From the NCBI RefSeq assembly GCF_028281565.1, contig NZ_JANQJQ010000021.1, forward strand, positions 1 through 64,000: 64,000 nucleotides of DNA, given 5' to 3'. The notes under the pieces are model-generated. The model searched no databases, was not told where the DNA came from, and was given only the letters and a program-made list of their open reading frames with translations. This stretch comes from Seonamhaeicola sp. (GTDB lineage Bacteria; Bacteroidota; Bacteroidia; Flavobacteriales; Flavobacteriaceae). The position numbers and the translations under genes were made by a program. Of this stretch, positions 33,628 to 61,782 are shown piece by piece. Positions within the stretch are counted from its first letter, which is position 1. Each line of letters opens with the position of its first letter.

Positions 33628-35214
33628 TTATGATAAGAGGATGTAAATCAAAATGGTTAATAGAACTAAAACGGCCCCATACGGTTTAACTTTAGACCAC
33701 GAAGCTTCTTCTTCCGTATGCTTTTTTTCTTCATAATAAGTTGCTGCCTCGGTGGTAGGGACAAACTTTGAAACTAAAAACATGATGAAAAAATTTAAAA
33801 CGAACTCTATGCCCCACAAGTGAACAAAATGAATATTTAGATTTAAAATGAATGTCGTGAGTATGTAAAAAGCAAAACCAAAGAAAAGCCCTGCTTTAGC
33901 CCCGACGGTATTTATTTGTTTAAAAAATATACCGGCGATGATTATAGATGATATTGGAATAAAAAATATACCATTTAATTCTTGCAGGAGTTGGTACAAC
34001 CCATCTGGTGCATACGCCACAAAAGGGGCGACTGCTATGGCAATAATGGCAAGTATAACCGAGGTTAGTTTTCCATACTTTACTAAAGTGGCATCGGAGG
34101 CATTTTTATTGATTATTTTTTTGTAGATGTCTAAACAAAAAATGGTGCTTGCAGAGTTTAATACACTATTAAATGTACTAAGCACAGCGCCTAAAATGAC
34201 CGCTGCAAAAAAGCCAAACAAATAGGTAGGCAATACCTTTTTTACCAGCATGGGGTAAATAAGGTCGGGAGTATTATAAAACTCATCTTGGAAGTAATAA
34301 TAGGCTATAAGGCCGGGTAAGACTATTATGGCAGGGACAAACAATTTTAAAACCCCGGTATAGATCAGACCTTTTTGAGCTTCGACCAGGTTTTTTGCTC
34401 CAAAAGCCCGTTGAATTATAGCTTGATTCATACCCCAGAAATATAACTGGTTGATCATTAGCCCTGTAAATATCACAGAAAAGGGGAGTACGGAGTTGGG
34501 TTTTCCAATAATGTCGAATTTGTCAGGGGCAAAATCGTAGACCGTTTTTAAGCCTTCCAGTACTTCACCATTACCAATTTGATGTAATGCTATAACAGGT
34601 ATTATCAAGCCTCCCAATAACAAGCCAATACCGTTAAGGGAGTCTGAATAAGCCACCGCTTTTAGACCACCAAAAATGGCATATAAAGAACCGATAACGC
34701 CTATGACCAATATGGTAAAAATTGAAGATTCCTCTTTTGAAATATTGAACATACTTGAAAAATCAAAAACACTTTCAATGTTTATGGCACCAGAGTATAA
34801 GACTATTGGAAGTAGTGTAATAACAAAAGATGACATTAATAAAAATGCAACAACGGACCGAATAGTGCCGTCAAATCTTATCTCCAAAAACTCAGGGATG
34901 GTGGTTAATCCCATTTTTATAAATTTTGGGATAAAATAGATGGCCGCAATAACCAAAGCTATGGCCGAAGTAACCTCCCATGCGATAATGATGATGCCAT
35001 TCTTATAAGAGCTACCATTCATACCAATTAAGTGTTCGGTAGATATATTAGTAAGAATCATAGAGCCCGCAATAATAGGCCCCGTTAAGCTTTTACCTGC
35101 TAAAAAATAACCCGTTGAAGTGTTAAACTTGTCTTTTCTGAGCTTGTAACTTGTATATAGTATTACAAACAAGGTAAAGCCAAAAAAGCCTAAATATGTA
35201 TAAATCATCTCCAA
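33628..35214 (-). CDS. Sodium:solute symporter (SSS family), possible inositol or hexuronate carrier
   Basis: A 528-residue membrane protein with about 13-14 helices and the SSS-family segments STGYFLAGKSLTGP near residue 32, TNISTEHLIGMNGSSY near 53 and GGLKAVAYSDSLNG near 183. Relatives of the SglT branch carry sugars or myo-inositol with Na+. It lies 26 bp downstream of the MIOX gene on the same strand, so inositol or the product glucuronate are the most natural cargo guesses, but this is inference from context. Confidence 0.88.
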   Translation of the reverse strand: MEMIYTYLGFFGFTLFVILYTSYKLRKDKFNTSTGYFLAGKSLTGPIIAGSMILTNISTEHLIGMNGSSYKNGIIIIAWEVTSAIALVIAAIYFIPKFIKMGLTTIPEFLEIRFDGTIRSVVAFLLMSSFVITLLPIVLYSGAINIESVFDFSSMFNISKEESSIFTILVIGVIGSLYAIFGGLKAVAYSDSLNGIGLLLGGLIIPVIALHQIGNGEVLEGLKTVYDFAPDKFDIIGKPNSVLPFSVIFTGLMINQLYFWGMNQAIIQRAFGAKNLVEAQKGLIYTGVLKLFVPAIIVLPGLIAYYYFQDEFYNTPDLIYPMLVKKVLPTYLFGFFAAVILGAVLSTFNSVLNSASTIFCLDIYKKIINKNASDATLVKYGKLTSVILAIIAIAVAPFVAYAPDGLYQLLQELNGIFFIPISSIIIAGIFFKQINTVGAKAGLFFGFAFYILTTFILNLNIHFVHLWGIEFVLNFFIMFLVSKFVPTTEAATYYEEKKHTEEEASWSKVKPYGAVLVLLTILIYILLS

Positions 35215-35240
35215 AGGGTATTTAATTATTCCTATTCATC

Positions 35241-36110
35241 TTAAAACTTCAAGACGTCCGGTAAATATTTTTTTACTAATTCTTCGTAATAAGGCCTTAG
35301 GGTTTCTACATCTGGTTTTACAGGTGCTTTGGTGTATAAATCATATGGATTAAACTTTTTTACCCATTTGAACATTTCTACATCTTTAGCATTCATTAAA
35401 TGGGCATATTCATTTTCTCTATGTTGGGCATAAAAGGAATGATACCTTATTATGTATAATGCCGGTTCAGGCAGGTAATCCTTTAATATTTGATACAGGT
35501 ATTCATCATGCCCCCAACTCATTTTCACATGGTCTAATCCACAATTTGGGGAATAAATACCATATTTAGTATTGTATCGTTCATCGGTATAATCCGGATT
35601 TTGTGAAAAGTATTCGTAATGCACAATTTTATTTGAAAATTTACACCCTACGGGAAAAGTGTCCCCTACAACCGCCCATTGAGGCTCATCAAAAAGACAA
35701 AGTACTTTACCAACATCGTGTAGAAATCCTGTTAATACAAACCAATCCGGATGTCCATCAGCTCTAATGGCTTCAGATGTTTGTAGCAAATGTTGCAGTT
35801 GATCCAAATCAATGTCCGGATCGCTATCGTCTACCAGCGTATTTAAAAAGTCTATAGCTTCCCAAAGAGACATTTCTTTTCTATTAAATTGTAAAAGATC
35901 TTGTTCTTTTTCGCATACAAAATCATAAGTCTGATAGCTGTGGTTCAATCTATAAAATTCTCTCACTGTTTCGGCTCTATCCGAGTCTTTATAGTTCCTG
36001 AATTCTTCTTTTGACTTTTTAGGAACCTTTGGGTCCGGATATCGCTTTAAAACATCCTCCTCCCAATGTTCTATACTTTTCAAGGGTTCTTTTTTTGGTG
36101 CGTTTTTCAT
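35241..36110 (-). CDS. Inositol oxygenase (MIOX)
   Basis: A 289-residue protein clearly related to eukaryotic myo-inositol oxygenase, the mixed-valent di-iron enzyme that converts myo-inositol and O2 to D-glucuronate. The iron-ligand set known from mammalian MIOX can be traced: His120 (GHPDW), His131-Asp132 (FLHDVGKV), His201 (SWGHDEY), His224 (RYHSFY) and Asp257 (FNPYDLYTK). The stretch EPQWAVVGDTFPVGC is almost unchanged from the animal proteins. The spacing between His120 and the following Trp is two residues shorter than in the human sequence as I recall it. The SSS symporter gene follows, and an SDR remnant lies upstream. Confidence 0.95.
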   Translation of the reverse strand: MKNAPKKEPLKSIEHWEEDVLKRYPDPKVPKKSKEEFRNYKDSDRAETVREFYRLNHSYQTYDFVCEKEQDLLQFNRKEMSLWEAIDFLNTLVDDSDPDIDLDQLQHLLQTSEAIRADGHPDWFVLTGFLHDVGKVLCLFDEPQWAVVGDTFPVGCKFSNKIVHYEYFSQNPDYTDERYNTKYGIYSPNCGLDHVKMSWGHDEYLYQILKDYLPEPALYIIRYHSFYAQHRENEYAHLMNAKDVEMFKWVKKFNPYDLYTKAPVKPDVETLRPYYEELVKKYLPDVLKF

Positions 36111-36134
36111 TTTTATCAGTTTTAAAAAGTTAGC

Positions 36135-36751: not shown

Positions 36752-39700
36752 ATGAAAAAACTTAAACTATTATTATTAGCCTTTATTATAGGCTTTTCAT
36801 CTTCAGCATTTGCGCAAGATAGTGTGTCAGGTGTTGTAACAGATGGTCAAAATGTTCCTATACCAGGAGTTAATGTCTTAATAAAAGGCACTACTACGGG
36901 TGCAGCAACAGATTTTGATGGTAACTACCAAATTAGTGCTAGTAATGGGGATGTAATTGTGTTTTCTTATGTGGGATATCAAACTGTAGAAATCATATTT
37001 ACAGGACAATCCCCATTAAATGTTCAATTACTCGAAGATGCAGCTCAGTTAGACGAAGTAGTTGTAATTGGGTATGGTTCTGTAAAGAAAAGTGATCTTA
37101 CAGGTTCTGTTGCTTCTATAGGAAGTGACGAGGTTGTTGAGCAACGGAAAACAGATGTTGCTCAGGCTTTACAAGGGCGTTTGGCAGGTGTAGATGTAAG
37201 AACATTAAACTCTAAGCCGGGTGCTCCTTTAGCAATAACGGTAAGAGGTAATACTGCTTTACGTAATACTAACCAGGGGAATGACGGTATAAATGATAAT
37301 CCTGGAGCAGATTTAGGACAACCATTATATGTGGTAGACGGGATTTTCTTTGATAACATTAACATGTTGAATCCTGCCGATATTAAACAAATAGACGTAT
37401 TAAAAGATGCTTCTTCAACGGCTATTTACGGAGCCAGAGGTGCCAATGGTGTTGTGATTATTACAACTAAAAGCGGTATAGAGGGTAGAACAAAGTTTAC
37501 TTACGATGCTACTTTTGGCGTGCGTACTGCGGTAAATACCCCAGACTTCTTTAATGGAGATCAATACGTAGCCTTTGCAGAAGATGTAGTAAGAGCAAGG
37601 GAGTTTGGAAACTTATTAAACGCGGGAGCTGCTACTGCATCAGACTATAATAATATTGTACCTGATATGACTACAGAATTCATTGGTAGCGAAGAGCTGG
37701 ATAATGTTGCTAATAGAAGGTATACAGATTGGATAGATATGTTTCAGGAAACAGGTATTCAAACAAGTCATACTTTAGCTGCCTCCGGAGGAGAAAATGG
37801 ATTGATTTATAATGCTTCACTGGGATATTTGAAAGACGAAGGCGTTGTAGGTATAGAGGATTTTGAGCGCTATAACCTTTCAGGAGCTTTATCTAAAAGA
37901 GTAAATGATAAACTAACATTTGGCATAAAAACTTATTTGGCCTTTTCAGAACGCGAAGAAGGTAGTCGTGAATTATTTAGAAGTTCTTTCCGTTTAGCGC
38001 CTACAGTGAACCCTTATGACGAAAATGGCGATATTGATTTAATCCCTGATGAACAAGATCAACGTTTCATCAATCCATTATATGAAAAAGATGGTGCCTG
38101 GTCTGTAAACACAAAGCGTTTTGATATCATTGCCAATGCTTTTTTGGAGTATCAACCTTTGGAGTGGTTGAGTCTAAAAACACAGTTCTCTCCTAGTTTA
38201 AGTTCTATCCGTTTTGGAGAGTATAGAGGTTTATTAACTAAATCTGCCAGAAATGATCCAGGGCGTATAAGGTCTTATTACAATACAGTATTAGATGTGG
38301 CCTATACATGGGATAATATAATCAACATGAATTTTGATATCGATGAAGATCATAGTATAAAAACAACATTGATTACATCTTTGTATCAAAAAGAAATAGA
38401 AGGAAGTAATATTCAAACCAGAAACTTTAGTTCAGATTTATACTCTTTTTACGATACAAGAGCAGGTTTGGATATTCGTAACTATGATAGTTATTTTACA
38501 AAAGAAAATACAGCCTCCTTTGCTGCAAGGGTAAATTATAGCTATAAAGACAAGTATATTCTATATGTAACTGGTCGTTATGATGGCGCTTCACGTTTAG
38601 CTGAAGGTAATAAATGGGATTTTTTCCCATCGGCAGCCTTTGCTTGGAAAGTTAGTGAAGAAGACTTTATGCAAAACACCGAGTGGATCAGCAATTTAAA
38701 ACTTAGATTGAGTTACGGACAAACCGGTAATATTAATTCTGTAAGTCCTTATGGTTCCTTTTCTTTCTTAAATAATAATACCTATTTGTTTGGTGATGAT
38801 GTGTCAACAGCTCAGACTATTGGTGGTTTAGCAAACCAGGAATTAACTTGGGAGGTATCTACCGAAACAAATGTTGGGGTTGATGTAGGGTTCTTAAATA
38901 ATAGAATTGCTTTAACCATAGATTATTATAACAAAGAGACCGATGGAAGTATTTTTAACAGGGAGTTATTTAATATCTCCGGATTTGGTTCAGCCATAGG
39001 TAACTTTGGTAAAGTAAGAAATAGAGGGGTTGAAGTAGTGTTAAATACTATAAACGTATCTAATGAAAACTTTAGATGGCGTACCTCAATTAACTTTGCT
39101 AAAAACAAGAACGAAGTATTAAAAATTGATGGTGAATTAGACCAAGTGCCATTGGGTCGTCATGGTGTAATAAAAGTAGGAGCCCCTGCAGACGCTATTT
39201 TCTCTTATCAAAATGAAGGTATTTGGCAGTTGGATGAGTATGCTGAAGCTGCTTCTTTTGGAGCGCGCCCGGGACAATACAAATTTGTGGATCAAGATAA
39301 TAATGGTGTAATTAACAGTGATGATAAAGTAGTTATCGGATCACCGTCACCGGATTGGATAGCTGGTATGACCAATACCTTCTCTTACAAGAATTGGGAA
39401 GCGAGAATCCAGGTTAATACACGTCAGGGAACCTTGGGGCATTCTGAATTCTATCAAAACTTTGCGCCTTACCAAAATGATGGGGCTAAGTTCAACAAAA
39501 TAAACTTAGATTACTGGACGCCAAATAATCCTAATGCATCACGCCCGGCATTGGCTTATGCACACCCGGGAGAATACTATTATGAAGAGTTTGACTTTGT
39601 TAAAATTGCAAATATAGGGTTCACTTATACTTTACCTGATAGCATTTTGGATAAAGTGAACTTAGATGCTGTACGCTTATCATTAGATATTCAGAATCCA

Positions 39701-39811
39701 TTCATATTTACAGATTACGAAGGACCGGATCCTGAAACAGGACTACAAAATTCTTATAGCTCGAGTTATATGGTTAAAACCGTGTTGTTTGGATTAAATG
39801 TATCATTATAA
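36752..39811 (+). CDS. SusC/RagA-type TonB-dependent outer-membrane transporter
   Basis: A 1019-residue protein with a signal peptide ending at about residue 22 (SSAFAQ). It has an N-terminal carboxypeptidase-regulatory-like domain (VSGVVTDGQNVPIPGVNV), then a TonB box region near DEVVVIGYG, a plug domain with YVVDGIFF and IYGARGANGVVII, and a 22-stranded barrel ending in a terminal beta strand (VLFGLNVSL). It imports oligosaccharides across the outer membrane with its SusD partner, whose gene follows after 18 bp. It heads the long rightward PUL operon. Confidence 0.96.
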   Translation: MKKLKLLLLAFIIGFSSSAFAQDSVSGVVTDGQNVPIPGVNVLIKGTTTGAATDFDGNYQISASNGDVIVFSYVGYQTVEIIFTGQSPLNVQLLEDAAQLDEVVVIGYGSVKKSDLTGSVASIGSDEVVEQRKTDVAQALQGRLAGVDVRTLNSKPGAPLAITVRGNTALRNTNQGNDGINDNPGADLGQPLYVVDGIFFDNINMLNPADIKQIDVLKDASSTAIYGARGANGVVIITTKSGIEGRTKFTYDATFGVRTAVNTPDFFNGDQYVAFAEDVVRAREFGNLLNAGAATASDYNNIVPDMTTEFIGSEELDNVANRRYTDWIDMFQETGIQTSHTLAASGGENGLIYNASLGYLKDEGVVGIEDFERYNLSGALSKRVNDKLTFGIKTYLAFSEREEGSRELFRSSFRLAPTVNPYDENGDIDLIPDEQDQRFINPLYEKDGAWSVNTKRFDIIANAFLEYQPLEWLSLKTQFSPSLSSIRFGEYRGLLTKSARNDPGRIRSYYNTVLDVAYTWDNIINMNFDIDEDHSIKTTLITSLYQKEIEGSNIQTRNFSSDLYSFYDTRAGLDIRNYDSYFTKENTASFAARVNYSYKDKYILYVTGRYDGASRLAEGNKWDFFPSAAFAWKVSEEDFMQNTEWISNLKLRLSYGQTGNINSVSPYGSFSFLNNNTYLFGDDVSTAQTIGGLANQELTWEVSTETNVGVDVGFLNNRIALTIDYYNKETDGSIFNRELFNISGFGSAIGNFGKVRNRGVEVVLNTINVSNENFRWRTSINFAKNKNEVLKIDGELDQVPLGRHGVIKVGAPADAIFSYQNEGIWQLDEYAEAASFGARPGQYKFVDQDNNGVINSDDKVVIGSPSPDWIAGMTNTFSYKNWEARIQVNTRQGTLGHSEFYQNFAPYQNDGAKFNKINLDYWTPNNPNASRPALAYAHPGEYYYEEFDFVKIANIGFTYTLPDSILDKVNLDAVRLSLDIQNPFIFTDYEGPDPETGLQNSYSSSYMVKTVLFGLNVSL

Positions 39812-39829: not shown

Positions 39830-41488
39830 ATGAAATCAATTTTTAAAATACAATATTTAGCATTCTTTATGGTAGTTTCCAGTTTTGTAGCTTGTGAGAA
39901 TTACTTAGAGGAAGAATTTTACGATGTAACCACCGAAAACTCGCTTACGCAGGATAATGCAGACCAATTAGTAGCAGGCGTATATCGTGGTCTTAGGGAT
40001 ATTTACAAAAACTATAATATTGCTTTTTCCGGGACAGACATGTTTACTAGTCAGGGAGATGTAAGCAGTACTTCGGATTTGAATGATTATTTTGGATTAA
40101 GCGCAGATAATGGAACTATTGGTTGGTATTGGAGTGCTAACTATAATATGATCGCCGATGCCAACATTGTAATCAATCGTTTTGAAAATCAAATTAGTTG
40201 GAGTGATTCTAAACTTGGAGATCGTGATTACGGTATAGCTCAAGCTAAAGCATTACGTGCCTTAGGGTTTTATAATTTAGTTCAACATTTTGGAGGTGTG
40301 GTTTTAGAATTAGAAGAAACAACATCCATTCGTTCAGATTATGCACGTTCTTCTGAAGAAGCCACCTTTGCTCAAATTATTTCTGATCTGGAAGCGGCCA
40401 TTCCAAACTTACAGGACAGTCCGCAAACAGGCCGTATTTCCAGAGCTGCTGCCAGACATTTATTGGCAGATGTATATTTAACAAGAGCATATAAGGCTTT
40501 TGGAAGTTCGGCTGACTTTACTACAGCCGCAAATTTAGCAGAACAAGCTATTGGTACTTATGATATTAGAAGCCAAACCTATGCTGAGGTATTTGACTTA
40601 AACAATCAGGTAAACCCGGAAGTCCTGTTTGCGGTACAATATGGTTCGCAAGGAAATAGTGAGGATAGGGATAATACAAAGCATGGTATATTCATGAACA
40701 GTGTAAATGATTATATAGGTATTGGTAGAAATAACCAATATGGTGCCAATAATACAGGTTTGATGCCTACACCTCATTTCTATTCTTTATTAGCTGATAA
40801 TGATACAAGGGATGCGGCTACATTACATCGTGTATTATTTGCAGACGAAGAAGCTACCTTTACATCAGACGTTGGAACCGATAACGTTGTGGCCGGAGAT
40901 ACCATAGCATATTACCCAAAAATGGCTTTAAGTACACCTGAGATAACAGATAAATTGAACCGCTATTGGGTATATCAGCCAGACCAGTATTTGTTTGGAA
41001 ACCCAACCAATATAGGGGGCGTAATTTACCAGTATTCATCCAATGTAATTAGAACAAATTTCCCTATTTTTAAGAAGTTTGATGATGTAAACATCGATGC
41101 CGAGCGTGGTGGTTCTCGAGATACTTATGTATTTAGAATAGCTGAAACCCATTTGTTGGCAGCAGAGGCATACCTGGGAGCTGGAAATACTACGTCAGCG
41201 TTATCACACATAAATAGGGTTAGGGAAAGAGCTACCGGTGTGGCTAATCATTATACATCTGTAGATATAGATACTATTCTGGATGAAAGAGGTATTGAGT
41301 TGGCCGGTGAAGAAAACAGATGGGCTGTATTAAAGCGTTCCGGGAAATTGCAGGAGCGTATTATGATATACAATCCTCATAATGCGGATCATAGTGCATT
41401 TAATGCCAATACGCATTTAGTAAGACCAATTCCTTCTCATGAAATTGAACTATCTGATGGTTCATTGCAGCAGAACCCTAATTACTAA
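39830..41488 (+). CDS. SusD/RagB-type glycan-binding outer-membrane lipoprotein
   Basis: A 552-residue lipoprotein, lipobox SSFVAC with Cys22 followed by an acidic stretch (ENYLEEEF) resembling the surface-export signal of Bacteroidota. The helical TPR-like RagB/SusD fold is seen in AKALRALGFYNLVQHFGG near residue 141, and the C-terminal SusD region in RIAETHLLAAEAYLGAGN near residue 435. It caps the SusC pore and captures the glycan. Confidence 0.95.
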   Translation: MKSIFKIQYLAFFMVVSSFVACENYLEEEFYDVTTENSLTQDNADQLVAGVYRGLRDIYKNYNIAFSGTDMFTSQGDVSSTSDLNDYFGLSADNGTIGWYWSANYNMIADANIVINRFENQISWSDSKLGDRDYGIAQAKALRALGFYNLVQHFGGVVLELEETTSIRSDYARSSEEATFAQIISDLEAAIPNLQDSPQTGRISRAAARHLLADVYLTRAYKAFGSSADFTTAANLAEQAIGTYDIRSQTYAEVFDLNNQVNPEVLFAVQYGSQGNSEDRDNTKHGIFMNSVNDYIGIGRNNQYGANNTGLMPTPHFYSLLADNDTRDAATLHRVLFADEEATFTSDVGTDNVVAGDTIAYYPKMALSTPEITDKLNRYWVYQPDQYLFGNPTNIGGVIYQYSSNVIRTNFPIFKKFDDVNIDAERGGSRDTYVFRIAETHLLAAEAYLGAGNTTSALSHINRVRERATGVANHYTSVDIDTILDERGIELAGEENRWAVLKRSGKLQERIMIYNPHNADHSAFNANTHLVRPIPSHEIELSDGSLQQNPNY

Positions 41489-41598
41489 AGATTAATAGCG
41501 CTTTAGATTAATTTTTGAGTTAGTCATAGTTGTTTAGTTTTATAAAGGCAGATGGAATTTATAATGTTTGTCTGCCTTTATTTTCAAATATAGTATTG

Positions 41599-43680
41599 AT
41601 GTTAAAATTACACCCATACATATTTATTCTAGTTTTGTTGCTTGTTCAATGTAAAAGACAGGAAAGCACTTTGGTTGAGGAAGATAGGGGCCTGGCCAGA
41701 TATATAAACCCCTTTATATGCACTTCCAATGATCATGGACAAACAGATGTGGCTGCGGGTGTACCTTTTGGAATGATTAAACCTTGTCCTGATACAGAGC
41801 CCATAGCACACTCAGGTTATGATTACAGTGCCAAAGAAATAATAGGGTTTTCAAATACTAGATTTTCAGGGGTAGGGTGTCGGGGTGTTGGGGGGAACCT
41901 AAGGATATTTCCCTTTGTTGCCTCGCAATCAGATTCAATACCTACCAGAGTAACTTACTCAAAGAATAGTGAAAGAGCTGTACCCGGGGCTTATGCCGTA
42001 CTCTTGGATAACGGTGTTAAAGCAGAACTTACAGGCACAAGACAAGTTGGATACCATAAATATACATTCCCCAAGTCAAAGTTTTCTGGTTTAACAATTG
42101 ATTTGGCAAGCTCTTATGTTGGCCACATTGCAGAGGAACATACCATTTTGGATAATGGCGTAATAGCCGGCAAAGTAACCAGTGTTAATGTATGCAGAAA
42201 AGGGCAATATACATTTTATTATGCCATTAGTTTTAATAAGGAAATTACAAGTGTTTCAGAGCAAAATTCTAAATTGACTTTTTCTTTTTCAACAAAAAAT
42301 GATGAAGCTGTTCAATTACTCTGTGCATTATCTGCAGTGAGTGAAGAAAATGCACAAAATACCTTGGGAAAAGCTTTGGATACCTCTTTTGAAGACGTAA
42401 AGAAATCTGCCTACAGGCAGTGGAACAAGGTCATGGGTAACGTGCAGGTGGAAACAGGTAATGATACTTTAAAAGAACTTTTTTATACACATTTATATCA
42501 TGCAACACAATCCCCATTTATTATAAATGATGATAACGGAAATTATAGGGGCAGTGACGGGAAACTATATAATAGCCATCAAAATTATTATCACGGATGG
42601 TCTATATGGGACACATTTAGAACCAAATTACCACTTTTTTCATTGGTATATCCCGAAAGATATTCAGAAATATTAAGTTCCTTAAAACAGTTATATAAGC
42701 AAGGGAAACCTGACTGGGCCACAGAAACAGAGCCGTTTTTAACAATAAGAACGGAACATGCCATTTTGGTTTTACTGGAAGCCTATAAAAAAGGACAATT
42801 ACCATTTTCCCTGGGAAGTATTTATGCAGAATTAAAAGAAGAGGCTGAGACTTTGCCTTTTAAATCACCGGATAATGTCTTGGAATCGAGTTTAGATTTA
42901 TGGGCACTTTCCCAAATTTCAAAGGAATTGGGGTATCTGGATGATCATAAAGCATACAAAGACAGGGCTTTTGAATATAAGACTTTGTGGAAAGAGAAGT
43001 TTCTCATGATGGACGAAGACGCCGATGTCATGCATGGGGATGGTTTATATGAAGGGACCTTATGGCAATACCGCTGGTTTGTTCCATTTGATATGGAAGG
43101 TATACAAAATATGGTTGGAGGACAACAAGTGTTCGAAAGCCAATTGGATTATTTTTTCGATAATGAGCTTTTTAATATAGGAAACCAACCTGATATTCAG
43201 GTGCCATACCTTTATAATTATACGGACTCACCGTGGAAAACACAGGCACTCATCCATAAACTGTTAAATACAAAAACTAATAATTGGTATGGGACGCACG
43301 AAAAGTTTGAAAAGCCAATTTTCAAAAAAATATTTACCAATACACCAGATGGTTACATACGGGAAATGGATGACGATGCAGGTACCATGTCCTCTTGGTA
43401 TGTATGGTCTACCATGGGATTATATCCCATATTTCCCGGAAGTACGGAATTAGCTTTAACAACACCACAGTTTGATAAGATAACCATTCAAACAAAAGAC
43501 AAACCATTGCAGATAATAGCCAATGGCTTATCATCTGAAAATATATATATACAACAGGTAACTTGGAATGGAGCAGAAATCAATACTGCCATAGTAGACT
43601 TCAATATGATCTCTAAGGGAGGTATTCTGAGATTTGAATTGGGAGATAAGCCTAATAAACATTGGGGTAAAAACAAATAA
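41599..43680 (+). CDS. GH92 alpha-mannosidase-like lipoprotein 1
   Basis: About 693 residues from the ATG at 41599, chosen because it gives a lipoprotein signal (LKLHPYIFILVLLLVQC); ATG 41530 would add 23 unlikely residues. The GH92 signature parts are NPFICTSNDHGQTDVAAGVPFGM, WDTFRTKLPLFSLV, YEGTLWQYRWFVPFD with the likely acid Glu, NQPDIQVPYLYNY and MDDDAGTMSSWYVWSTMGLYP with catalytic-base Asp residues. GH92 enzymes are Ca-dependent inverting exo-alpha-mannosidases. The usual VPHD motif reads VPFD here. It follows susD after 110 bp. Confidence 0.92.
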   Translation: MLKLHPYIFILVLLLVQCKRQESTLVEEDRGLARYINPFICTSNDHGQTDVAAGVPFGMIKPCPDTEPIAHSGYDYSAKEIIGFSNTRFSGVGCRGVGGNLRIFPFVASQSDSIPTRVTYSKNSERAVPGAYAVLLDNGVKAELTGTRQVGYHKYTFPKSKFSGLTIDLASSYVGHIAEEHTILDNGVIAGKVTSVNVCRKGQYTFYYAISFNKEITSVSEQNSKLTFSFSTKNDEAVQLLCALSAVSEENAQNTLGKALDTSFEDVKKSAYRQWNKVMGNVQVETGNDTLKELFYTHLYHATQSPFIINDDNGNYRGSDGKLYNSHQNYYHGWSIWDTFRTKLPLFSLVYPERYSEILSSLKQLYKQGKPDWATETEPFLTIRTEHAILVLLEAYKKGQLPFSLGSIYAELKEEAETLPFKSPDNVLESSLDLWALSQISKELGYLDDHKAYKDRAFEYKTLWKEKFLMMDEDADVMHGDGLYEGTLWQYRWFVPFDMEGIQNMVGGQQVFESQLDYFFDNELFNIGNQPDIQVPYLYNYTDSPWKTQALIHKLLNTKTNNWYGTHEKFEKPIFKKIFTNTPDGYIREMDDDAGTMSSWYVWSTMGLYPIFPGSTELALTTPQFDKITIQTKDKPLQIIANGLSSENIYIQQVTWNGAEINTAIVDFNMISKGGILRFELGDKPNKHWGKNK

Positions 43681-49159: not shown

Positions 49160-49163
49160 GATT

Positions 49164-53669: not shown

Positions 53670-53701
53670 TTAAATATTAAATGATGCAAATTTTAGGATT
53701 T

Positions 53702-54457
53702 ATGAAAAAAATAATTGCAGGACTTGGTATAATTATATTAACAGTCTGTTGTAAAGGCAACAATGTAATTAAAATTAGCAATACAAATTACGAATTGGCA
53801 TTTTCAGATGAATTTGATGAACAATCATTAAAAACAGATATTTGGGATTATCGCACGGATAGTAAACATTGGAGTACGCAAAAAAAAGAAAATGTCGAGG
53901 TAAAAGATGGGTTTCTATATCTTAATCTTAAAAAAGAAAAATCATTAGATAAAGAATATACAGGAGCCGGTTTGATATCCAAAAAAAAATTTAAATATGG
54001 GTATTATGAAGCAAGATTAAAAACTCCTTTTGGAGGTGGGTGGCATACATCGTTCTGGTTAATGACTCATGATGGTTCTGGTGGCACTAACACCAATGTA
54101 GCTACGATAGAGATTGATATTTTAGAAAATGATTCCAAAGACCGAAAGGGATACCATGTAAACTTGCACAAATGGTACGACGGTCATAAAGATTATATTG
54201 GAAAACATGTTGAAGCTTTTGGTATAGATGAAAAATTTCAGGTTTTAGCATGCGAATATACCCCAGAGTATGTTAGGTACTATTTAAATGGAGAAGTAGT
54301 ACGTGAAATAAATATTAAAGATTTAAATCACAGTGGTTTAAATATTTGGCTCACGAGTATTGCCTCCTTTTTAGGGGGAACAGAATCTGTAGATGATACA
54401 AAATTACCATCATCTGCCATATTTGATTATGTCAGATATTATAAACCAGTAAAGTAA
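53702..54457 (+). CDS. GH16 family glycoside hydrolase lipoprotein
   Basis: About 251 residues from ATG 53702, which gives a short lipoprotein signal ending TVCC; ATG 53681 is seven codons upstream. It has a beta-jellyroll with the GH16 motif IEIDILEND, the catalytic pair being Glu137 and Glu142 with Asp139 between them. N-terminal ELAFSDEFDEQSL and GYYEARLKTP also fit. GH16 enzymes are endo-acting beta-glucanases or beta-galactanases. The specific polymer is not evident. Confidence 0.92.
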   Translation: MKKIIAGLGIIILTVCCKGNNVIKISNTNYELAFSDEFDEQSLKTDIWDYRTDSKHWSTQKKENVEVKDGFLYLNLKKEKSLDKEYTGAGLISKKKFKYGYYEARLKTPFGGGWHTSFWLMTHDGSGGTNTNVATIEIDILENDSKDRKGYHVNLHKWYDGHKDYIGKHVEAFGIDEKFQVLACEYTPEYVRYYLNGEVVREINIKDLNHSGLNIWLTSIASFLGGTESVDDTKLPSSAIFDYVRYYKPVK

Positions 54458-54465
54458 AAAGAACA

Positions 54466-55911
54466 ATGTATATGGCAAGCAGAAGGAATTTTATAAAAAA
54501 TACAACATTGGCTACGGTAGGACTTTCCACCTTAAATAGTCCAGCATTAAATTGGGTAATGACTTATCAAGAGTTTAAATCGAATAGACCAGCCATAGCT
54601 GACCGAACATTTACAAGTATAGCGGTTGAGAAAACAATAAAAAAGGTAAAGAAAGGCATAGATAGCCTAGAATTGTCATGGATGTTTGAAAACTGTTTTC
54701 CAAATACTTTGGATACCACAGTAGATTTTGAATATATCGACGGCAAACCGGATTCGTATATTATTACAGGTGATATTGACGCCATGTGGTTACGTGATTC
54801 AACAGCACAGATTTGGCCCTACCTTCCATTAATCAAGGAAGAAAAAAAGTTAGCCGATTTGTTTAAAGGACTAATAAATCGCCAAACAAAATGCATCAAT
54901 CTGGATCCCTATGCAAATTCCTTTTTGAAAGATTTTAACAGGGAAACGCATTGGAAAAATGATGAACCAATGCCACGCCCGGGTGTTCACGAACGTAAAT
55001 GGGAGATTGACTCATTGTGTTATGCCGTGCGTTTGGCACATGGTTATTATAAGGAAACGGGGGATACTTCAATTTTTGATTCAGACTGGGATAATGCAGC
55101 GCGTTTAATAGTAGAGGTGTTTAAAACCGAACAGCGAAAGGATGGGGAAACTCCTTATTATTTTAGACGTTTAAGGTGGAATAACAATATTGTGGCACCA
55201 TTTAAAGGAAAAGGAAGGCCAATGAAACCCGTTGGGTTGATCGCTTCAGCCTTCCGTCCTTCAGATGATGGTTGTATGTATCCGTTCCTAATTCCTTCCA
55301 ATTTATTTGCAGTAGAATCATTAGCGCAATTAAGCGAGATCTACAAAGAGGTTTTACACGATACAGCATTTGCAAATGAGTGTGAAGCTTTTTCAAAAGA
55401 AGTATTGGAAGCTATTAACCAATATGCCATTGCTGAACATTTGGATTATGGAAAAATTTACGCTTATGAGGTAGATGGTTATGGCAATAAAGTCTTTATT
55501 GATGACCCAAACATTCCTTCCTTAATAGCAATGAAATATTTGAACAAGAAAAAGTATTATCAACCGGAAGTATATCAAAATACGCGTAAATACTTGTTAA
55601 GTGCCGATAACCCGTACTATTTTAAAGGTAAAGCTGGAGAAGGACAAGGTGGGCCTCATGCAGGGTTAGATACCATTTGGCCAATGGGTATTATTTTAAG
55701 AGCCATGACCAGCGAAGATGATAATGAAATTGTTTGGTGTATCAAACAATTAATGAAAACCCATGATAATACAGGTTTTATGCATGAAACATTTAACAAA
55801 GATGATGCTTCTAAATTCTCTAGAAAATGGTTTGCATGGGCCAATACCTTGTTTGGTGAGTTGATTGTAAAACTGTATAATGAAAAACCAGCGTTGCTGA
55901 AATCCATTTAA
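54466..55911 (+). CDS. GH125 exo-alpha-1,6-mannosidase-like protein
   Basis: A 481-residue protein with a Tat-type signal (SRRNFIKNTTLATVG). The (alpha/alpha)6 barrel shows GDIDAMWLRDSTAQIWPYL near residue 102, HERKWEIDSLCYAVRLAHGYY near 177 and GPHAGLDTIWPMGI near 395, typical of GH125. Characterised GH125 enzymes are inverting exo-alpha-1,6-mannosidases acting on mannan and N-glycan-type linkages. Together with GH92 it argues that the substrate carries alpha-mannose. The next gene starts 1 bp after its stop. Confidence 0.92.
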   Translation: MYMASRRNFIKNTTLATVGLSTLNSPALNWVMTYQEFKSNRPAIADRTFTSIAVEKTIKKVKKGIDSLELSWMFENCFPNTLDTTVDFEYIDGKPDSYIITGDIDAMWLRDSTAQIWPYLPLIKEEKKLADLFKGLINRQTKCINLDPYANSFLKDFNRETHWKNDEPMPRPGVHERKWEIDSLCYAVRLAHGYYKETGDTSIFDSDWDNAARLIVEVFKTEQRKDGETPYYFRRLRWNNNIVAPFKGKGRPMKPVGLIASAFRPSDDGCMYPFLIPSNLFAVESLAQLSEIYKEVLHDTAFANECEAFSKEVLEAINQYAIAEHLDYGKIYAYEVDGYGNKVFIDDPNIPSLIAMKYLNKKKYYQPEVYQNTRKYLLSADNPYYFKGKAGEGQGGPHAGLDTIWPMGIILRAMTSEDDNEIVWCIKQLMKTHDNTGFMHETFNKDDASKFSRKWFAWANTLFGELIVKLYNEKPALLKSI

Positions 55912-55912: not shown

Positions 55913-56980
55913 GTGAACGGTAAAATATTCATAGCGGTTATTTTAAGTGTTATGCTTTTGGCTTGTTCAAATAACACAGGAAAGGCTCAGAAGTTAAACG
56001 ACATTCAGGTAATAGGTAGCCACAATTCTTATAAAATGGCTATTGAGGGACCGCTATGGGATTATCTGTATACTCAAGATTCTTCTGGAGCAAAGTCATT
56101 GCAATACGACCATATTCCAATTGAAAAACAGCTTGATTTAGGATTGAGAAACCTGGAATTGGATGTGTTTTACGACCCGGAAGGCGGGCGTTTTTCAAAT
56201 CCAAAAGGACTCGAAATAGTGAAAGCCTCGGGTAAAGCTCCTTTAGCTTTCGATGTGTCAGGGAAATTAGCCCAACCGGGATTAAAGCTGTTTCATATAC
56301 AGGATATTGATTTTAGAAGTCATTATTTATTATTTAAGGACTGCCTAAAGGCACTTAAAAATTGGTCTGAAACGCATCCAAACCATACTCCTGTTTTCAT
56401 TTTAATGAATACAAAAGATAAAGTAATAGATGGTTTAACGCCACCTTTATCGTTTACAAAAAGGGCCTATGATGATTTGGATAATGAAATTCGTTCCGTA
56501 TTTTCAAACGACCAATTAATAACACCGGATGACGTACGTGGCCATTACAATACTTTAGAAGAAGCCGTTTTAACCAAAGGTTGGCCAAATTTGGAAACCT
56601 CTAAAGGGAAGTTTCTTTTTGTTTTGGATGAGAAAGCGGAGAAAATTGGCAGGTACTTGGAGGGGCACCCTGCCTTAAAAGGTCGCGTGCTTTTTGCAAA
56701 TAGTAAGGAGGGAAACCCGGAAGCGGCCTTCAGGATTATAAATAATCCCATTAAGGATTTTGACTATATTCAACAGTTGGTTGCCAAAGGTTATATGGTA
56801 CGTACAAGAGCTGATGCCGGTACTAAAGAAGCGCGTACCAACGATTACTCCAAGTTTATAAAAGCCAAGGCCTCAGGGGCTCAGGTTATTTCAACAGACT
56901 ATTATATCCCCACAGGTTTATTCCCGTCTACTTTCAAAGTAAGTTTTGAAGACGGTACCTACGAGCGCATAAAAAATTAG
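55913..56980 (+). CDS. Ca2+-dependent phosphoinositide phospholipase C-like lipoprotein
   Basis: A 355-residue lipoprotein (lipobox VMLLAC) with a GTG start at 55913. It resembles the bacterial Ca-dependent PI-PLC family, a TIM-barrel phosphodiesterase. The first catalytic His is His37 in IGSHNSYK, LRNLELDVFYDPEGG near residue 80 supplies acidic metal ligands, and the second His is His128 in LFHIQDIDFRS. Such enzymes cleave phosphatidylinositol to diacylglycerol and a cyclic inositol phosphate. The actual lipid cut by this protein is not known. Its place between GH125 and GH115 in a glycan operon is unusual. Confidence 0.85.
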   Translation: MNGKIFIAVILSVMLLACSNNTGKAQKLNDIQVIGSHNSYKMAIEGPLWDYLYTQDSSGAKSLQYDHIPIEKQLDLGLRNLELDVFYDPEGGRFSNPKGLEIVKASGKAPLAFDVSGKLAQPGLKLFHIQDIDFRSHYLLFKDCLKALKNWSETHPNHTPVFILMNTKDKVIDGLTPPLSFTKRAYDDLDNEIRSVFSNDQLITPDDVRGHYNTLEEAVLTKGWPNLETSKGKFLFVLDEKAEKIGRYLEGHPALKGRVLFANSKEGNPEAAFRIINNPIKDFDYIQQLVAKGYMVRTRADAGTKEARTNDYSKFIKAKASGAQVISTDYYIPTGLFPSTFKVSFEDGTYERIKN

Positions 56981-56983: not shown

Positions 56984-59926
56984 ATGTATAAATATGCTTT
57001 ACTAATATTAGGGCTTCAGTTGGCATTTTCGCAACAACAACAGTTTTTAGTTGTAGATAATAACAAGCAAGCGAGCATACTAATCGATAAGCAAGATGCA
57101 AAAGTAGTAGAGATTGCGGCCCATATTTTTGCTGCTGATGTGCTTAATATAACGGGCACAAAGCCTTTGATAACTACAAAAAAGCCAAAATCAAACTCGT
57201 TGATAATAGCAGGAACATTAGGAAACAACCGGTGGATTGATACCATGGTTTCAAATGGGAAAGTGAGCATAGAAGCAATTAAATCAAAATGGGAAAGCTA
57301 TAATATACAGATTGTTAATAATCCAATAAAAGGCGTAAAGGAGGCTTTGGTAATTATTGGTAGCGATAGAAGGGGAACTGCTTATGGGATATTGGAGTTA
57401 TCCAGAATGATGGGCGTTTCCCCCTGGGAATGGTGGGCCGATGTAACGCCAAATAAAAAAGAAAAAGTAGTCTTAAATATAAACAACAAAACTTATGGAA
57501 GCCCTTCAGTTAAATACCGTGGTATTTTTTTAAATGATGAAGACTGGGGACTGCAACGTTGGGCAGCCTTAAATTATGAACCGGAAACTGGGGATATCGG
57601 ACCAAAAACCTATGCAAAAGTATTTGAGTTATTATTGCGTTTAAGAGCCAATACCATTTGGCCTGCCATGCATAAATGCACAAAAGCATTTTACCATTAC
57701 CCCAAAAATAAAGAAGTAGCAGATCAATATGCCATTGTGGTTGGTAGTTCACACGCAGAACCTATGCTTTGTAATATTAATGCGGAATGGAACCATGATG
57801 AGATGGGGGATTACCGTTACGATACAAATTCAGAATCTATAAGAACATTATTCGAGAAGCGTGCTAAAGAAACAAAAAATTACGAAGGTATTTATACCGT
57901 TGGTATGAGAGGAGAGCACGATTCACCTATGATTGTAGGCGAAGACAATACAGATTCACAAGTAAAACTCTTGGAAAAAGTCATAACAGATCAAAGAGTC
58001 ATCCTTAAAGCGAATACAAAAAAAGGCGTTGCCAAGCCACAAGCATTTGTGCCCTATAAAGAGGTGCTTCATTATTACCAAAACGGATTAAATCTACCTG
58101 AAGATGTTAGCTTGGTCTGGACAGATGATAATTATGGATATATTCGACAACTAAGTAACCCCGAAGAACAAAAGAGGTCAGGAGGGGCAGGCGTTTATTA
58201 TCATACATCTTATTGGGGAAGGCCACATGATTATTTATGGTTAAACTCCACAAATCCCGTGTTGATGTGGGAGGAAATGTCTAAGGCATTTGAGTTTCAA
58301 TCCAGGGATATTTGGATCCTAAACTGTGGAGACATTAAACCGCATGAGTACAATATAGAACTGTTTTTAGATATGGCCTGGAATATGAGCGCATTTAAAG
58401 ACAGTAAATCGGTTAAACAGCATCATACGGCATGGGCTTCACGTGAGTTTGGAAAAAAACATGCCAAAGAGATAACAGATCTGATGTTTAAAAACAATAC
58501 CCTGGCATTTAAACGTCGACCGGAATTTATGGCCTGGAGCCAGGTAGAACCAGTCACCAAGGCAGGAAAAATGGAATTGACGCAATACCATTATGGCGAT
58601 GAGGTATCCAAAAGAATTCATGATTATCAAAAATTGATAGATAAGGTTGACTATTTAAAACCAAAAATACCGGCTAATAGACAAGATGCTTTTTACCAAT
58701 TAATCTATTACCCGGTGGTTGGAGCATCAAGTTTAAATCATAAATGGTTATACACTTACAAAAATGAATTTGTTGCCGACCAGGGACGGGCTAGTGCCAA
58801 TTATTTTGCTGAAAAAGCCTATAAAGCTTTTAAACGCATTCAAACGGAAACTGATTATTTTAACAATACATTGCAAGCAGGCAAGTGGCATCATATCATG
58901 AGTGCATCCCCAAGACATTTGCCGGTGTTTTCCAGGCCCACGGCTACTATGCCTCTGAGTAAGGAAAGTACTGCACTCGGAATAGCTTTAGAAAGCTACC
59001 AAATGGAGGTAAACCAGTCCATTATTAATTCCTATGCCGATGTACTGCCAGTTTTTAATAGCTATACAAAAAACAGCTACTATGTAGATGTGTTTTTAAA
59101 AGGTGAAGGAAGTGTAGCTTGGGAAGCAAAGCCCAGGGCAGATTGGATAATACTATCAAAAACCTCGGGAACATTAAACGTCAATAACCTAGAAGAACGC
59201 CTTTGGGTAACCATAGATTGGGAACAAGTACCAAAAGGTGAAGACAAAAAAGAAGCGCCTTTAGGACATGACTATCAGTTAATTCCGCCAAGTTATAAGG
59301 TGAATTCGGCCATTGATTTTTTAAGTGGCGATGCCCATACGACCATTGGAGTTTCAGTATTTAATCCGAAGCTTCAAGACTTGGAGAATTATAAAGGTTT
59401 TGTTGAAGATAAGGGCTACGTATCCATAAACGCAGAGCAATATTCAAGAAAGTATGATGGTAAGGAGGCCTCTTGGAATATTTTGGAAGGTATTGGATAT
59501 TCAGGACAAGTTAGTGTGGCCTTACCCAGAACAGCGGATTCACAAGTGAGTATTTCAGATATTATAAGCAAAAGCCCTTCATTGGAATATGATTTTTATT
59601 CATTTAACTTTGGAGAAGCAGCTGTTTATGTGCAGGCGGTACCAACGCATGCATTTCATAAAGGAAAAGGTGTAAGATGTGCCGTTGCTATTGATGATGC
59701 AGAGCCTGTAATTATGGATTTTCAAACGTTTGGAAGAAGTGATATTTGGAAACAAAATGTATTGAAGAATGCTTCAGTTAAATCCGCTAGACAAATAGTA
59801 AATAAAGCAGGTAAGCATAATTTGAAGATTTGGATGGTAGACCCAGGAGTCATGATCGATCAGATATTAATTGATTTGGGAGGCTGGAAATCCTCGTATG
59901 CCTTTCCGCCGGAAACAAAAATGTAA
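56984..59926 (+). CDS. GH115 alpha-glucuronidase-like protein
   Basis: A 980-residue exported protein with signal peptide (residues 1-16, LAFS). An N-terminal domain contains IIGSDRRGTAYGILELS and WEWWADVTP. The barrel holds YRGIFLNDEDWGL near residue 179, LRANTIWPAMH near 214, GMRGEHDSPM near 307 and WTDDNYGYIRQL near 376, all typical of GH115. The C-terminal domains are beta-rich. GH115 enzymes remove alpha-1,2-linked glucuronic or 4-O-methylglucuronic acid, best known from xylan. No xylanase is seen in the window, so another GlcA-bearing glycan is likely. Confidence 0.94.
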   Translation: MYKYALLILGLQLAFSQQQQFLVVDNNKQASILIDKQDAKVVEIAAHIFAADVLNITGTKPLITTKKPKSNSLIIAGTLGNNRWIDTMVSNGKVSIEAIKSKWESYNIQIVNNPIKGVKEALVIIGSDRRGTAYGILELSRMMGVSPWEWWADVTPNKKEKVVLNINNKTYGSPSVKYRGIFLNDEDWGLQRWAALNYEPETGDIGPKTYAKVFELLLRLRANTIWPAMHKCTKAFYHYPKNKEVADQYAIVVGSSHAEPMLCNINAEWNHDEMGDYRYDTNSESIRTLFEKRAKETKNYEGIYTVGMRGEHDSPMIVGEDNTDSQVKLLEKVITDQRVILKANTKKGVAKPQAFVPYKEVLHYYQNGLNLPEDVSLVWTDDNYGYIRQLSNPEEQKRSGGAGVYYHTSYWGRPHDYLWLNSTNPVLMWEEMSKAFEFQSRDIWILNCGDIKPHEYNIELFLDMAWNMSAFKDSKSVKQHHTAWASREFGKKHAKEITDLMFKNNTLAFKRRPEFMAWSQVEPVTKAGKMELTQYHYGDEVSKRIHDYQKLIDKVDYLKPKIPANRQDAFYQLIYYPVVGASSLNHKWLYTYKNEFVADQGRASANYFAEKAYKAFKRIQTETDYFNNTLQAGKWHHIMSASPRHLPVFSRPTATMPLSKESTALGIALESYQMEVNQSIINSYADVLPVFNSYTKNSYYVDVFLKGEGSVAWEAKPRADWIILSKTSGTLNVNNLEERLWVTIDWEQVPKGEDKKEAPLGHDYQLIPPSYKVNSAIDFLSGDAHTTIGVSVFNPKLQDLENYKGFVEDKGYVSINAEQYSRKYDGKEASWNILEGIGYSGQVSVALPRTADSQVSISDIISKSPSLEYDFYSFNFGEAAVYVQAVPTHAFHKGKGVRCAVAIDDAEPVIMDFQTFGRSDIWKQNVLKNASVKSARQIVNKAGKHNLKIWMVDPGVMIDQILIDLGGWKSSYAFPPETKM

Positions 59927-59940
59927 ATTTGGGTAATCAT

Positions 59941-61782
59941 ATGAAACATACCATCATAATTATTAGTGTTAGTTGGCTTTTAGTTTCATGTATACCGAAA
60001 CATGAGCTTAGTAAAAACAGCTTGCAGATAGCCTTTATGGCAGATGTACATTTGCAGGATATTTATGGGGAATTTCAAGACTCACATTATGAGGGCGTAA
60101 AAAACCCGAAGACGGGCAAATTTACCTTAGCACGTACTATGAAATCGCAACTGCAGTCCACAAGGCTTTTTAACGAAAATTATTTTGCCTTTATAGCGGC
60201 TTTAGATGATGTTGTTTCACGAGGTATAAGGTACGTAGTTTTACCGGGCGATTTTAGTGATGACGGACAACTTTTAAATATCAGAGGATTAAGGGAGATT
60301 TTAAATACCTATTCGGAGCGACACAACATAAAATTTATAGCCACAACGGGTAATCATGACCCGGTTCGCCCATTCTTTCAAGATGCGGGGAAGCCGGATT
60401 TTTTGGGAGCAGGAGGGAAGCAACAGCCCATTTATAGTAAAGAAGGTATGTATGTTGCTAAAGACACCTTAAGCTTACCGGTTGTCATTTCAAAAGATAT
60501 AGCCAAGTTGGGGTATGACCAGATTTTAGGTGAATTAAGTGCCTTTGGGTTTTTCCCAAAAAAAACAGACGTTTACTGGGAAACACCGTTTTCATCATAT
60601 GCCTATGAAAATTATAAATTTCAAGAAGCTTTACAGCAGTCCGAATTATCACAAAGGCAATATAAAATACCGCCAATTAATTCATTAATGCCAGATGTAA
60701 GTTATTTGGTAGAACCTGGAGAAAATTTATGGTTTTTAGCCATTGATGCCAATGTATATGTGCCTAAGGAAAACATTAAGAACAAGGAATTAAATCCCAT
60801 TAGTTATCATAGTGCCAGCATAGGATATAATAATGTGTTAACCCATAAAAAGCATTTGATTCCTTGGGTACACTCGGTGACTAATCGTGCTGAGCAGTTA
60901 GGCAAAACATTAATAGTATTCAGTCATTATCCAATGGTTGAATTTAATGATGGAGCATCGAAGAAAATACGATCATTTTTTGGAAATAAAAAAATGCAAC
61001 TACACCGTGTGCCTCATGACGATGTAGCTGACGCATTTACCGAAGCAGGTGTTAACGTTCATTTTGGGGGACACATGCATATTAATGATACAGGTATAAG
61101 AACAACTAAAAAAGGACAGACGATAATCAACATTCAAATACCATCGTTGGCCGCTTATATTCCCGCCTATAAAATACTAACAGTGCATTCAAATACTGAG
61201 TTTGAAATCGAAACGGTGGTAATGGATTCCGTTCCGGGATTTAATAATCTTTTCCCTTTGTATGCAAAGGAATATGAATATTTACAAAGCGTCAATGATT
61301 CTAAGATTTGGAACAAGGACGTATTAAAGGCGCAAACTTATAAAGAGTTTACCCAATGGCATTTAAAGGAATTGGTCAGGCTTAGGTTTTTACCCAATGA
61401 TTGGCCGCCAGAATTTTTGGGCACTTTTTCCCAATCTACTGGCAGGGACTTGCTGCTATTGGACACTGCCTTAGATGTCGATGTATTAAATAAAACATTA
61501 AAGGATAAAGGCCTGGTTTTAGACGATTTTGGCACTTGGACAGGCTTTGATATGATTTTTGACTTTTACCGTTTAAGAAGTGCCGATGAATTGGCAATAC
61601 CCGATATTGGTTTAAAACAATTGGAACAATATAAAATAGTGTGTGATAAATTAAAGCAATCAGGCCACAGTCAATTTCAATTGTGGAGTGCTATTTTTAA
61701 AAGGACGACTAATGGACAACCATCTAATCATTTTACAATAGATTTAAAATCCAATACCATTCAACAAGTTTCTGCCGAATAA
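59941..61782 (+). CDS. Calcineurin-like metallophosphoesterase lipoprotein
   Basis: About 613 residues from ATG 59941 (a TTG at 59929 is rejected). The lipobox is LLVSC. The five metallophosphoesterase motifs occur in order: MADVHLQ with Asp35 and His37, LPGDFSDDG, TTGNHDP, FSHYPMV and FGGHMHIND. A C-terminal region of about 200 residues (about 410-613) has no motif I recognise. The family hydrolyses phosphomono- or diesters using two metal ions. Its position after PI-PLC and GH115 suggests it dephosphorylates an inositol-phosphate or phosphorylated glycan, but this is inference. Confidence 0.9.
   Translation: MKHTIIIISVSWLLVSCIPKHELSKNSLQIAFMADVHLQDIYGEFQDSHYEGVKNPKTGKFTLARTMKSQLQSTRLFNENYFAFIAALDDVVSRGIRYVVLPGDFSDDGQLLNIRGLREILNTYSERHNIKFIATTGNHDPVRPFFQDAGKPDFLGAGGKQQPIYSKEGMYVAKDTLSLPVVISKDIAKLGYDQILGELSAFGFFPKKTDVYWETPFSSYAYENYKFQEALQQSELSQRQYKIPPINSLMPDVSYLVEPGENLWFLAIDANVYVPKENIKNKELNPISYHSASIGYNNVLTHKKHLIPWVHSVTNRAEQLGKTLIVFSHYPMVEFNDGASKKIRSFFGNKKMQLHRVPHDDVADAFTEAGVNVHFGGHMHINDTGIRTTKKGQTIINIQIPSLAAYIPAYKILTVHSNTEFEIETVVMDSVPGFNNLFPLYAKEYEYLQSVNDSKIWNKDVLKAQTYKEFTQWHLKELVRLRFLPNDWPPEFLGTFSQSTGRDLLLLDTALDVDVLNKTLKDKGLVLDDFGTWTGFDMIFDFYRLRSADELAIPDIGLKQLEQYKIVCDKLKQSGHSQFQLWSAIFKRTTNGQPSNHFTIDLKSNTIQQVSAE

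Follow-up and report, generated by a model that had tools for sequence, protein, structure and literature searches.

A polysaccharide utilization locus of Seonamhaeicola that probably serves inositol sphingolipids of plants and green algae

We analysed a window of 64,000 nucleotides from Seonamhaeicola sp., a marine-type flavobacterium (assembly GCF_028281565.1, contig NZ_JANQJQ010000021.1, positions 1 to 64,000 of the forward strand) and found a polysaccharide utilization locus (PUL) that probably serves the use of glycosyl inositol phosphoceramides (GIPCs), the glucuronic acid (GlcA)-type sphingolipids of plants and green algae. We put the probability of this reading at about 0.74. One paper counts GIPCs among Earth's major sphingolipids (PMC11907402). 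An earlier note, made from the letters of the window, had placed three GH92 genes, GH125, GH115, a phosphatidylinositol-specific phospholipase C (PI-PLC, here PLC), a metallophosphoesterase (MPE), the inositol oxygenase MIOX and a sodium:solute symporter (SSS) in one PUL, and a Pfam scan of the window proteins confirmed them all. If the reading is right, the locus is a bacterial way of feeding on very common plant and green-algal membrane sphingolipids, and its direction at a glycolipid would extend the known range of PUL functions.

Results

The locus and its proposed route

All families named here scored above the Pfam cut-offs, and genes lie on the forward strand unless stated otherwise. 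A SusC-type TonB-dependent transporter (36752..39811; PF13715, PF07715) and a SusD-type lipoprotein (39830..41488; PF07980, PF14322), whose lipobox is followed by acidic residues, adjoin genes for glycan enzymes. A linked sensor-regulator, a hybrid two-component system (HTCS) protein with a 1345-aa frame (PF07494), runs from 61925 to 64000 and on to 65962 in the contig. These two features, a SusC/SusD pair beside glycan enzymes and a linked sensor-regulator, mark the cluster as a PUL. The enzymes include three members of the GH92 alpha-mannosidase family, namely GH92a (41530..43680; PF07971, PF17678), GH92b (45314..47626; PF07971) and GH92c (50646..53669; PF07971, PF13287), the last with an Fn3-associated domain and a weak F5/8-type match (E values for the three, 4e-100, 8e-131 and 3e-146). 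They are accompanied by the GH125 alpha-mannosidase (54466..55911; PF06824, E 2e-158), the Ca-dependent PI-PLC family protein (55913..56980; PF16670, E 1e-127), GH115 (56984..59926; PF15979, PF17829, E 6e-131) and the calcineurin-like MPE (59929..61782; PF00149, E 3e-9). On the reverse strand lie the SSS gene (33628..35214; PF00474, NF007790, E 3e-56) and MIOX (35241..36110; PF05153, E 2e-108).

We infer the substrate, the order of steps and the exact enzyme activities from these families. GH92 and GH125 enzymes would trim mannose, and the PI-PLC would cut inositol phosphate off the ceramide, replacing the usual endo-glycanase and freeing a water-soluble phospho-inositol glycan that the SusC/SusD pair would import. 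GH115 would take the alpha-1,2-linked GlcA off the inositol, and the MPE, as a putative inositol phosphate phosphatase, would take off the phosphate. The SSS protein would import inositol and MIOX would convert myo-inositol to D-glucuronate, which would join the freed GlcA in the UxaC/UxuA route.

Published head groups agree in outline with such a route. The fragment alpha-Man-(1,4)-alpha-GlcA-(1,2)-myo-inositol was derived from GIPCs of rose, and plant GIPCs usually carry alpha-GlcA, unlike fungal ones (PMC4230332). GlcA-inositol phosphoceramide (GlcA-IPC) is called plant-specific; in Arabidopsis Man-GlcA-IPC predominates, whereas tobacco and rice have forms with hexosamine (PMC9113257). Sugars reported on GIPCs include mannose, glucose, glucosamine (GlcN) or its N-acetylated form (GlcNAc), galactose, arabinose and fucose (PMC12201980).

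The gene set recurs in related genomes

The earlier note had predicted that PI-PLC, GH115, GH92 and MIOX would be found together in related genomes, and we found this association both in a sample of the family and in a wider set of named loci. The family sample held 397 genomes (genomes, contigs and loci carry our G, C and L numbers), 32 of them with PF16670. There were 30 strong matches, one being that of the window; the 29 others were mapped with the window proteins over up to 20 kb on each side, leaving aside the weak matches (G072, G195, G320, G121 and a second one in G127). Two PLC contexts were seen. Type A, with a close PLC, comprised 16 loci including the window and one from a genome of the same genus, G374; GH92 was present in 16/16, GH115 or a divergent 685-aa GH115-like protein in 15/16, and MPE in 15/16. 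The 14 type-B loci had SusC, mostly a SusD-like protein and often MPE beside the PLC, without GH92 or GH115. The exception was G006 (C3 80000-99999, L139), where GH92 genes and a type-B PLC stand beside short pieces of SSS, GH3 and MIOX genes, the MIOX having two stops; this is perhaps a decaying type-A cluster.

For the named loci, contigs were scanned with 15 type-A PLCs and the best 80 of at least 530 relatives were mapped. The first 48 were type A and the other 32 type B, a split that was made by context after mapping and that follows listing order. Among the 48, GH92 was found in 46, GH115 or its divergent form in 43, MPE and HTCS in 47 each, and MIOX in 22 within the 10-kb flank covered. 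In the two that lack GH92 (L149, L186), a contig end truncates the locus. The 32 type-B loci, with more distant PLCs, had no GH92 or GH115, with MPE in 20 and SusC in 26. Eight named loci repeat family-sample loci, so that type A amounts to 56 distinct loci with the window included, and the co-occurrence in them is more than chance. Their hosts are Flavobacteriaceae, together with one Prolixibacteraceae metagenome-assembled genome (MAG) and one Ancylomarina. On the PLC tree 3 changes account for the distribution of the two types, where shuffling gave a mean of 35. The type-A rows do not make up a single clean clade, and L192, which was counted as type B from an 8.5-kb contig, is placed among them.

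GH115 and the glucuronic acid bond

GUX enzymes add alpha-1,2-GlcA to xylan, and GH115 enzymes are known to cut that bond. One paper assigns the glucuronosyltransferase MOCA1/IPUT1 to the GUX branch of GT8 in its results, with a differing statement in its introduction, and shows a tree that includes green algae (PMC12971971).

The window GH115 matched the solved structure BtGH115A (5by3) with 587 bits and is the one GH115 match in its genome. Of 20 chosen genomes (16 with type A and 4 with PLC-less clusters), 19 had GH115, and the cluster copy was the sole copy in the window genome, G374, G044, G339, G152, G260 and G153. In a tree of 46 cluster sequences and 8 other GH115 of the hosts (three rows repeat others), the cluster copies formed one side of a branch with an SH-aLRT support of 92, below the 95 mark, the cluster label having been set partly by a score cut. 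The tree omits two full-length copies without a retrieved locus, three shorter ones (broken or of about 740 aa) and all divergent copies of 685 aa. Even the lowest-scoring cluster row was 59% identical to the window GH115, compared with 32-43% for the 8 other host rows. The GH115 of the cluster is present and grouped apart from the other copies, and its action on GlcA-inositol is putative.

This enzyme also bears on the idea that the target is fungal mannosyl inositol phosphoceramides. GH92 copies, PLC, MPE and MIOX would fit Man-Ins-P-ceramide, and fungal GIPCs can carry fucose. On such lipids, however, GH115 would lack a role, because GlcA-IPC is described as plant-specific (PMC9113257). Furthermore, among the hosts the names Hyunsoonleella ulvae, Maribacter ulvicola, Flavobacterium algicola, F. 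pokkalii and F. glycines hint weakly, as names alone, at plants and algae. We therefore give fungal lipids only the slightest chance.

The phospholipase and the phosphoesterase

The window PLC matched two solved PI-PLCs, 5fyo (E 7e-9) and 3h4w (E 2e-7), over part of the chain; we take these to be the Pseudomonas PI-PLC and PI-PLC1 of Streptomyces antibioticus, respectively. A profile search with the PLC alignment gave a match that did not reach into the N-terminal part of 3h4w or 5fyo. At the family level, judging by sequence, the protein belongs to the phospholipase C family that acts on inositol lipids. It is the single PF16670 match of the window genome and lies inside the cluster. Of the 48 named type-A loci, 37 have GH115 directly 3' of the PLC and another 10 have MPE there. 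As the earlier note had proposed for both proteins, PLC and MPE look like lipoproteins: a simple pattern found a lipobox in each. The MPE gave no meaningful match to PDB entries by sequence. In an alignment of 32 chosen rows, the window included, the metal motifs DxH, GD, GNHD, SH and GHxH were invariant in all 32.

Loci also exist in which the PLC stands without the glycosidases. L188-L219, G317, G143, G335 and others have SusC, a SusD-like protein and PI-PLC, often with MPE, and no GH92 or GH115; their hosts include Algoriphagus, Zobellia and Cytophaga. This module is a candidate locus for plain inositol phospholipids.

MIOX and the uronate route

MIOX aligned with inositol oxygenase 2huo over 264 residues (E 4e-85), a full-length match that includes the HD motif. 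It is the one MIOX match in the window genome. In the family sample, MIOX was at the cluster in 16/16 type-A genomes, within the mapped stretch in 15 and, in G228, immediately beyond SusC at some 20 kb from the PLC. SSS accompanied it within the stretch in 15/16 loci and lay further out in G228. Full-length MIOX was present in 16/16 type-A genomes and in 46/381 others (Fisher p = 2e-14, which is not a true probability because the genomes are related). The window genome also contains UxaC and UxuA (C41:108549-111912). UxuA adjoins MIOX in G115 and G260 and is at most three genes from it in G164; among these three only G260 has the close PLC, and there a short-chain dehydrogenase is also near MIOX and UxuA. 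The higher-scoring class of MIOX was found in 31 genomes, 16 of them type A. Of the 15 other loci of this class, 10 are in PULs without PLC and 5 have no PUL gene in the stretch examined. For the lower-scoring class, 3 of 33 loci were checked and showed no PUL; G006 was also read.

Mannosidases and accessory genes of relatives

Of the three GH92 proteins, GH92b recurs most often in the named loci (35 of 48); like GH92c, it matches GH92 structures in the PDB. GH92 and GH125 enzymes are available for the Man-GlcA bond, on which their alpha-1,4 action is putative. Within GH92, a missing general acid is the signature of enzymes whose leaving group is phosphate-like. In the alignment of GH92c with 6f91, a serine (VSGN) faces a glutamate of the TEG motif, and in that of GH92b with 6f8z a glutamate faces this motif. 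The GH125 N-terminus reads MASRRNFIK after MY, which by eye is twin-arginine-like.

Relatives of the cluster carry further enzymes. Homologues of GH89 (alpha-N-acetylglucosaminidase) and of an HGSNAT-like acetyltransferase, identified by Pfam on the G228 copies and matched to these by phmmer, occur in 7 of the 48 named loci, all 7 with GH115. The hosts are Flavobacterium daejeonense, F. sufflavum, F. glycines, F. undicola, F. palustre, F. pokkalii and a Flavobacterium MAG. In heparan breakdown alpha-GlcN is removed by acetylation followed by cleavage, and the pair is what removal of alpha-GlcN from GlcA would need, fitting GlcN(Ac)-GlcA-inositol. Other versions add GH29, GH2 with an arabinofuranosidase-type protein, or GH43, an alpha-galactosidase and a rhamnosidase-type protein. 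The GH29, GH2, GH43, alpha-galactosidase and arabinofuranosidase-type proteins fit the fucose, galactose and arabinose reported on GIPCs. Every one of the GIPC sugars listed above, glucose apart, is matched by a gene family in some cluster version, and the GH3 enzyme described below could serve glucose.

These accessory genes also allow two alternatives to be weighed. One is that the target is the glycosylphosphatidylinositol (GPI) anchors of mannoproteins or algal proteins, with GH92 and GH125 stripping mannose, GH89 and the HGSNAT-like protein GlcN, and PLC cutting the phosphate. GPI anchors do have an alpha-mannose core and inositol phosphate, and besides the seven GH89/HGSNAT-like loci there are nine of the 48 named loci with GH125. 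However, GPI is not known to contain GlcA, and the core would leave unexplained a GH115 or divergent form that is present in 43 of 48 loci, including all seven with GH89; moreover, the window PUL has no peptidase. We regard a GPI target as very unlikely. The earlier note had allowed either GIPC- or GPI-type glycosylated inositol phospholipids; co-occurrence supports that proposal, the accessory genes favour its first half, and the second is not favoured.

The other alternative is that a lipid-free acidic polysaccharide or glycoprotein glycan (of the glucuronomannan, rhamnogalacturonan II or arabinogalactan type) is the target, and that PLC, MPE and MIOX harvest membrane inositol lipids released with it. 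The window encodes three GH28 proteins (GH28a, 43684..45309; GH28b, 47636..49159; GH28c, 49131..50645; all PF00295) and one GH16 (53681..54457; PF00722), which makes exact the gene numbers for the two families that the earlier note had reported. GH28, GH16, GH3, GH29 and GH43 are polysaccharide enzymes, GH28a recurs in 18 of the 48 named loci, and five relatives of the cluster have no PLC. Against this, the smallest version, L179 of Maribacter ulvicola, has over the 21 kb examined only SusC, a SusD-like protein, a GH115-like protein, GH92b, PLC, MPE, HTCS, MIOX and, at the end of that stretch, SSS, with no endo-glycanase among them. No polysaccharide lyase or sulfatase was found in the window PUL, nor in the 9 of 23 unmatched same-strand open reading frames (ORFs) of the 48 loci that were scanned. 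Furthermore, GH89 with an HGSNAT-like protein and the linkage of PLC to MPE would be unexpected, and the module of PLC, MPE and the SusC/SusD pair exists alone too. A lipid-free target therefore seems unlikely to us. Plant GIPC heads, in which alpha-GlcA-inositol-P-ceramide bears mannose or GlcN(Ac), match the accessory genes of relatives better than either GPI or a polymer does, and these genes favour GlcA-type GIPCs over both.

GH28b and GH28c were not seen in the cluster of the sister species, and the nearest solved structures to GH16 are laminarinases. A xylan PUL was also considered and rejected, since a scan of 17 proteins from 29638-61782 gave neither GH10 nor GH11. As targets, GIPCs rank above GPI, fungal lipids, xylan and glucuronomannan alike.

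Three PULs (L128, L132, L133) have MIOX, GH89, HGSNAT/DUF5009-like and GH28-like genes without PLC, and L128 also carries an SSF-domain protein and GH43 by Pfam; these possibly serve glucosaminyl inositols. In several Flavobacterium-type versions, PLC-less ones included, a 188-aa protein (L073:18720-19286 and homologues) is encoded 3' of a GH92 gene; it had no Pfam match and no meaningful PDB match.

Extent of the cluster

The earlier note had set the locus at 33628-61782. Its content was right and its extent too short, as HTCS runs to 65962 and two genes on the other side start at 29638. These encode a major facilitator superfamily (MFS) transporter, probably for sugar uptake (29638..30945; PF07690), and a GH3 beta-glycosidase with PA14 (30888..33560; PF00933, PF01915), whose true start is probably downstream of 30888. 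They are probably part of the cluster, because homologues sit inside related clusters. MFS homologues of up to 770 bits adjoin HTCS in Seonamhaeicola, Algibacter, Hyunsoonleella and other versions, and 16 of the 48 named loci have GH3 homologues that score 959-1013 bits, with one more at 368 bits. The nearest solved structures to GH3 are beta-xylosidases and beta-glucosidases. Beside the MFS gene, a 166-aa ORF on the reverse strand (28738-29238) with a partial LacI-type sensor domain (PF13377) has the appearance of an incomplete regulator. In the sister species a complete LacI gene follows the MFS gene, and tblastn gave no match between this gene and the ORF. Ordinary cell-wall and division genes lie to the left of the cluster.

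Discussion

Several observations weigh against a GIPC target. Close PLCs are uncommon: 16/397 family genomes have one, and of 395 genomes of the phylum 29 matched the PLC profile, only the window's and that of G586 above 600 bits (G579, 497). Nor is the PLC constant among cluster versions. Five PULs without it (G308, G317, G127, G153, G115) keep GH92, MPE and MIOX, three of the five also GH115; a type-B PLC lies elsewhere in G317, G127 and G153, and the genomes of G308 and G115 had no PLC match. Such versions may live on inositol phosphate glycans that other organisms release, or our proposal may give the PLC too central a place. Five of the 48 named loci, including one whose contig is short, lack GH115 of either kind, and genome G369 has no GH115 at all. 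A crude pattern detected a lipobox in 21 and another signal-like start in 26 of the 48 type-A PLCs, and the acidic residues of an export signal in one of 48, so a surface location is putative. A search for an alkaline ceramidase found nothing, and its control was equally silent. The three GH28 genes and GH16 have no role on GIPCs, and remain as unexplained as the earlier note had said. There is also a chemical point: GlcA at the inositol O-2, its published position in plants, would block a classical 1,2-cyclising PI-PLC, which would therefore act only after GH115. A Streptomyces enzyme of the PF16670 family reportedly works via the 6-OH, a mechanism for which we found no confirming paper; it would avoid the O-2 block and would also exclude GPI.

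With these points weighed, GIPCs remain the target that we favour. We also lean towards a broader view, in which Flavobacteriaceae and a few other Bacteroidota share a class of membrane-lipid PULs. In this class a PLC would replace the endo-glycanase, modular exo-glycosidases would mirror host-specific GIPC heads, GlcA and inositol would both flow through glucuronate, and PLC-less versions would live on freed inositol phosphate glycans. The modular accessory genes would then predict the GIPC head group for each host, and the cluster could supply enzymes for sequencing GIPC head groups.

Comparison with known systems

Among the papers listed by our literature searches, which excluded most subscription journals and all preprints, we found no report of bacterial GIPC use, or of PI-PLC or MIOX in PULs. 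The nearest report found is that of GIPC-PLC1 from Botrytis cinerea (BCIN07g04350), a secreted PLC that acts on plant GIPCs and releases inositol phosphate glycans, as proposed for the window PLC; it differs in being annotated as a sphingomyelinase, probably of another family, and in being fungal and outside any PUL (PMC11496612). Among sequence relatives, S. antibioticus PI-PLC1 (3h4w) and the Pseudomonas PI-PLC (5fyo) are related to the window PLC but distant. BtGH115A (5by3) and the xylan alpha-glucuronidases share the GH115 family, whereas the cluster copies form a group of their own. Yeast alpha-mannan PULs of Bacteroidota carry GH92 and GH125. Like SusCD/HTCS PULs of this phylum, the cluster has a SusC/SusD pair, an HTCS, and GH92 and GH125 with export signals; unlike them, it adds a PI-PLC, a phosphoesterase, an SSS symporter and MIOX.

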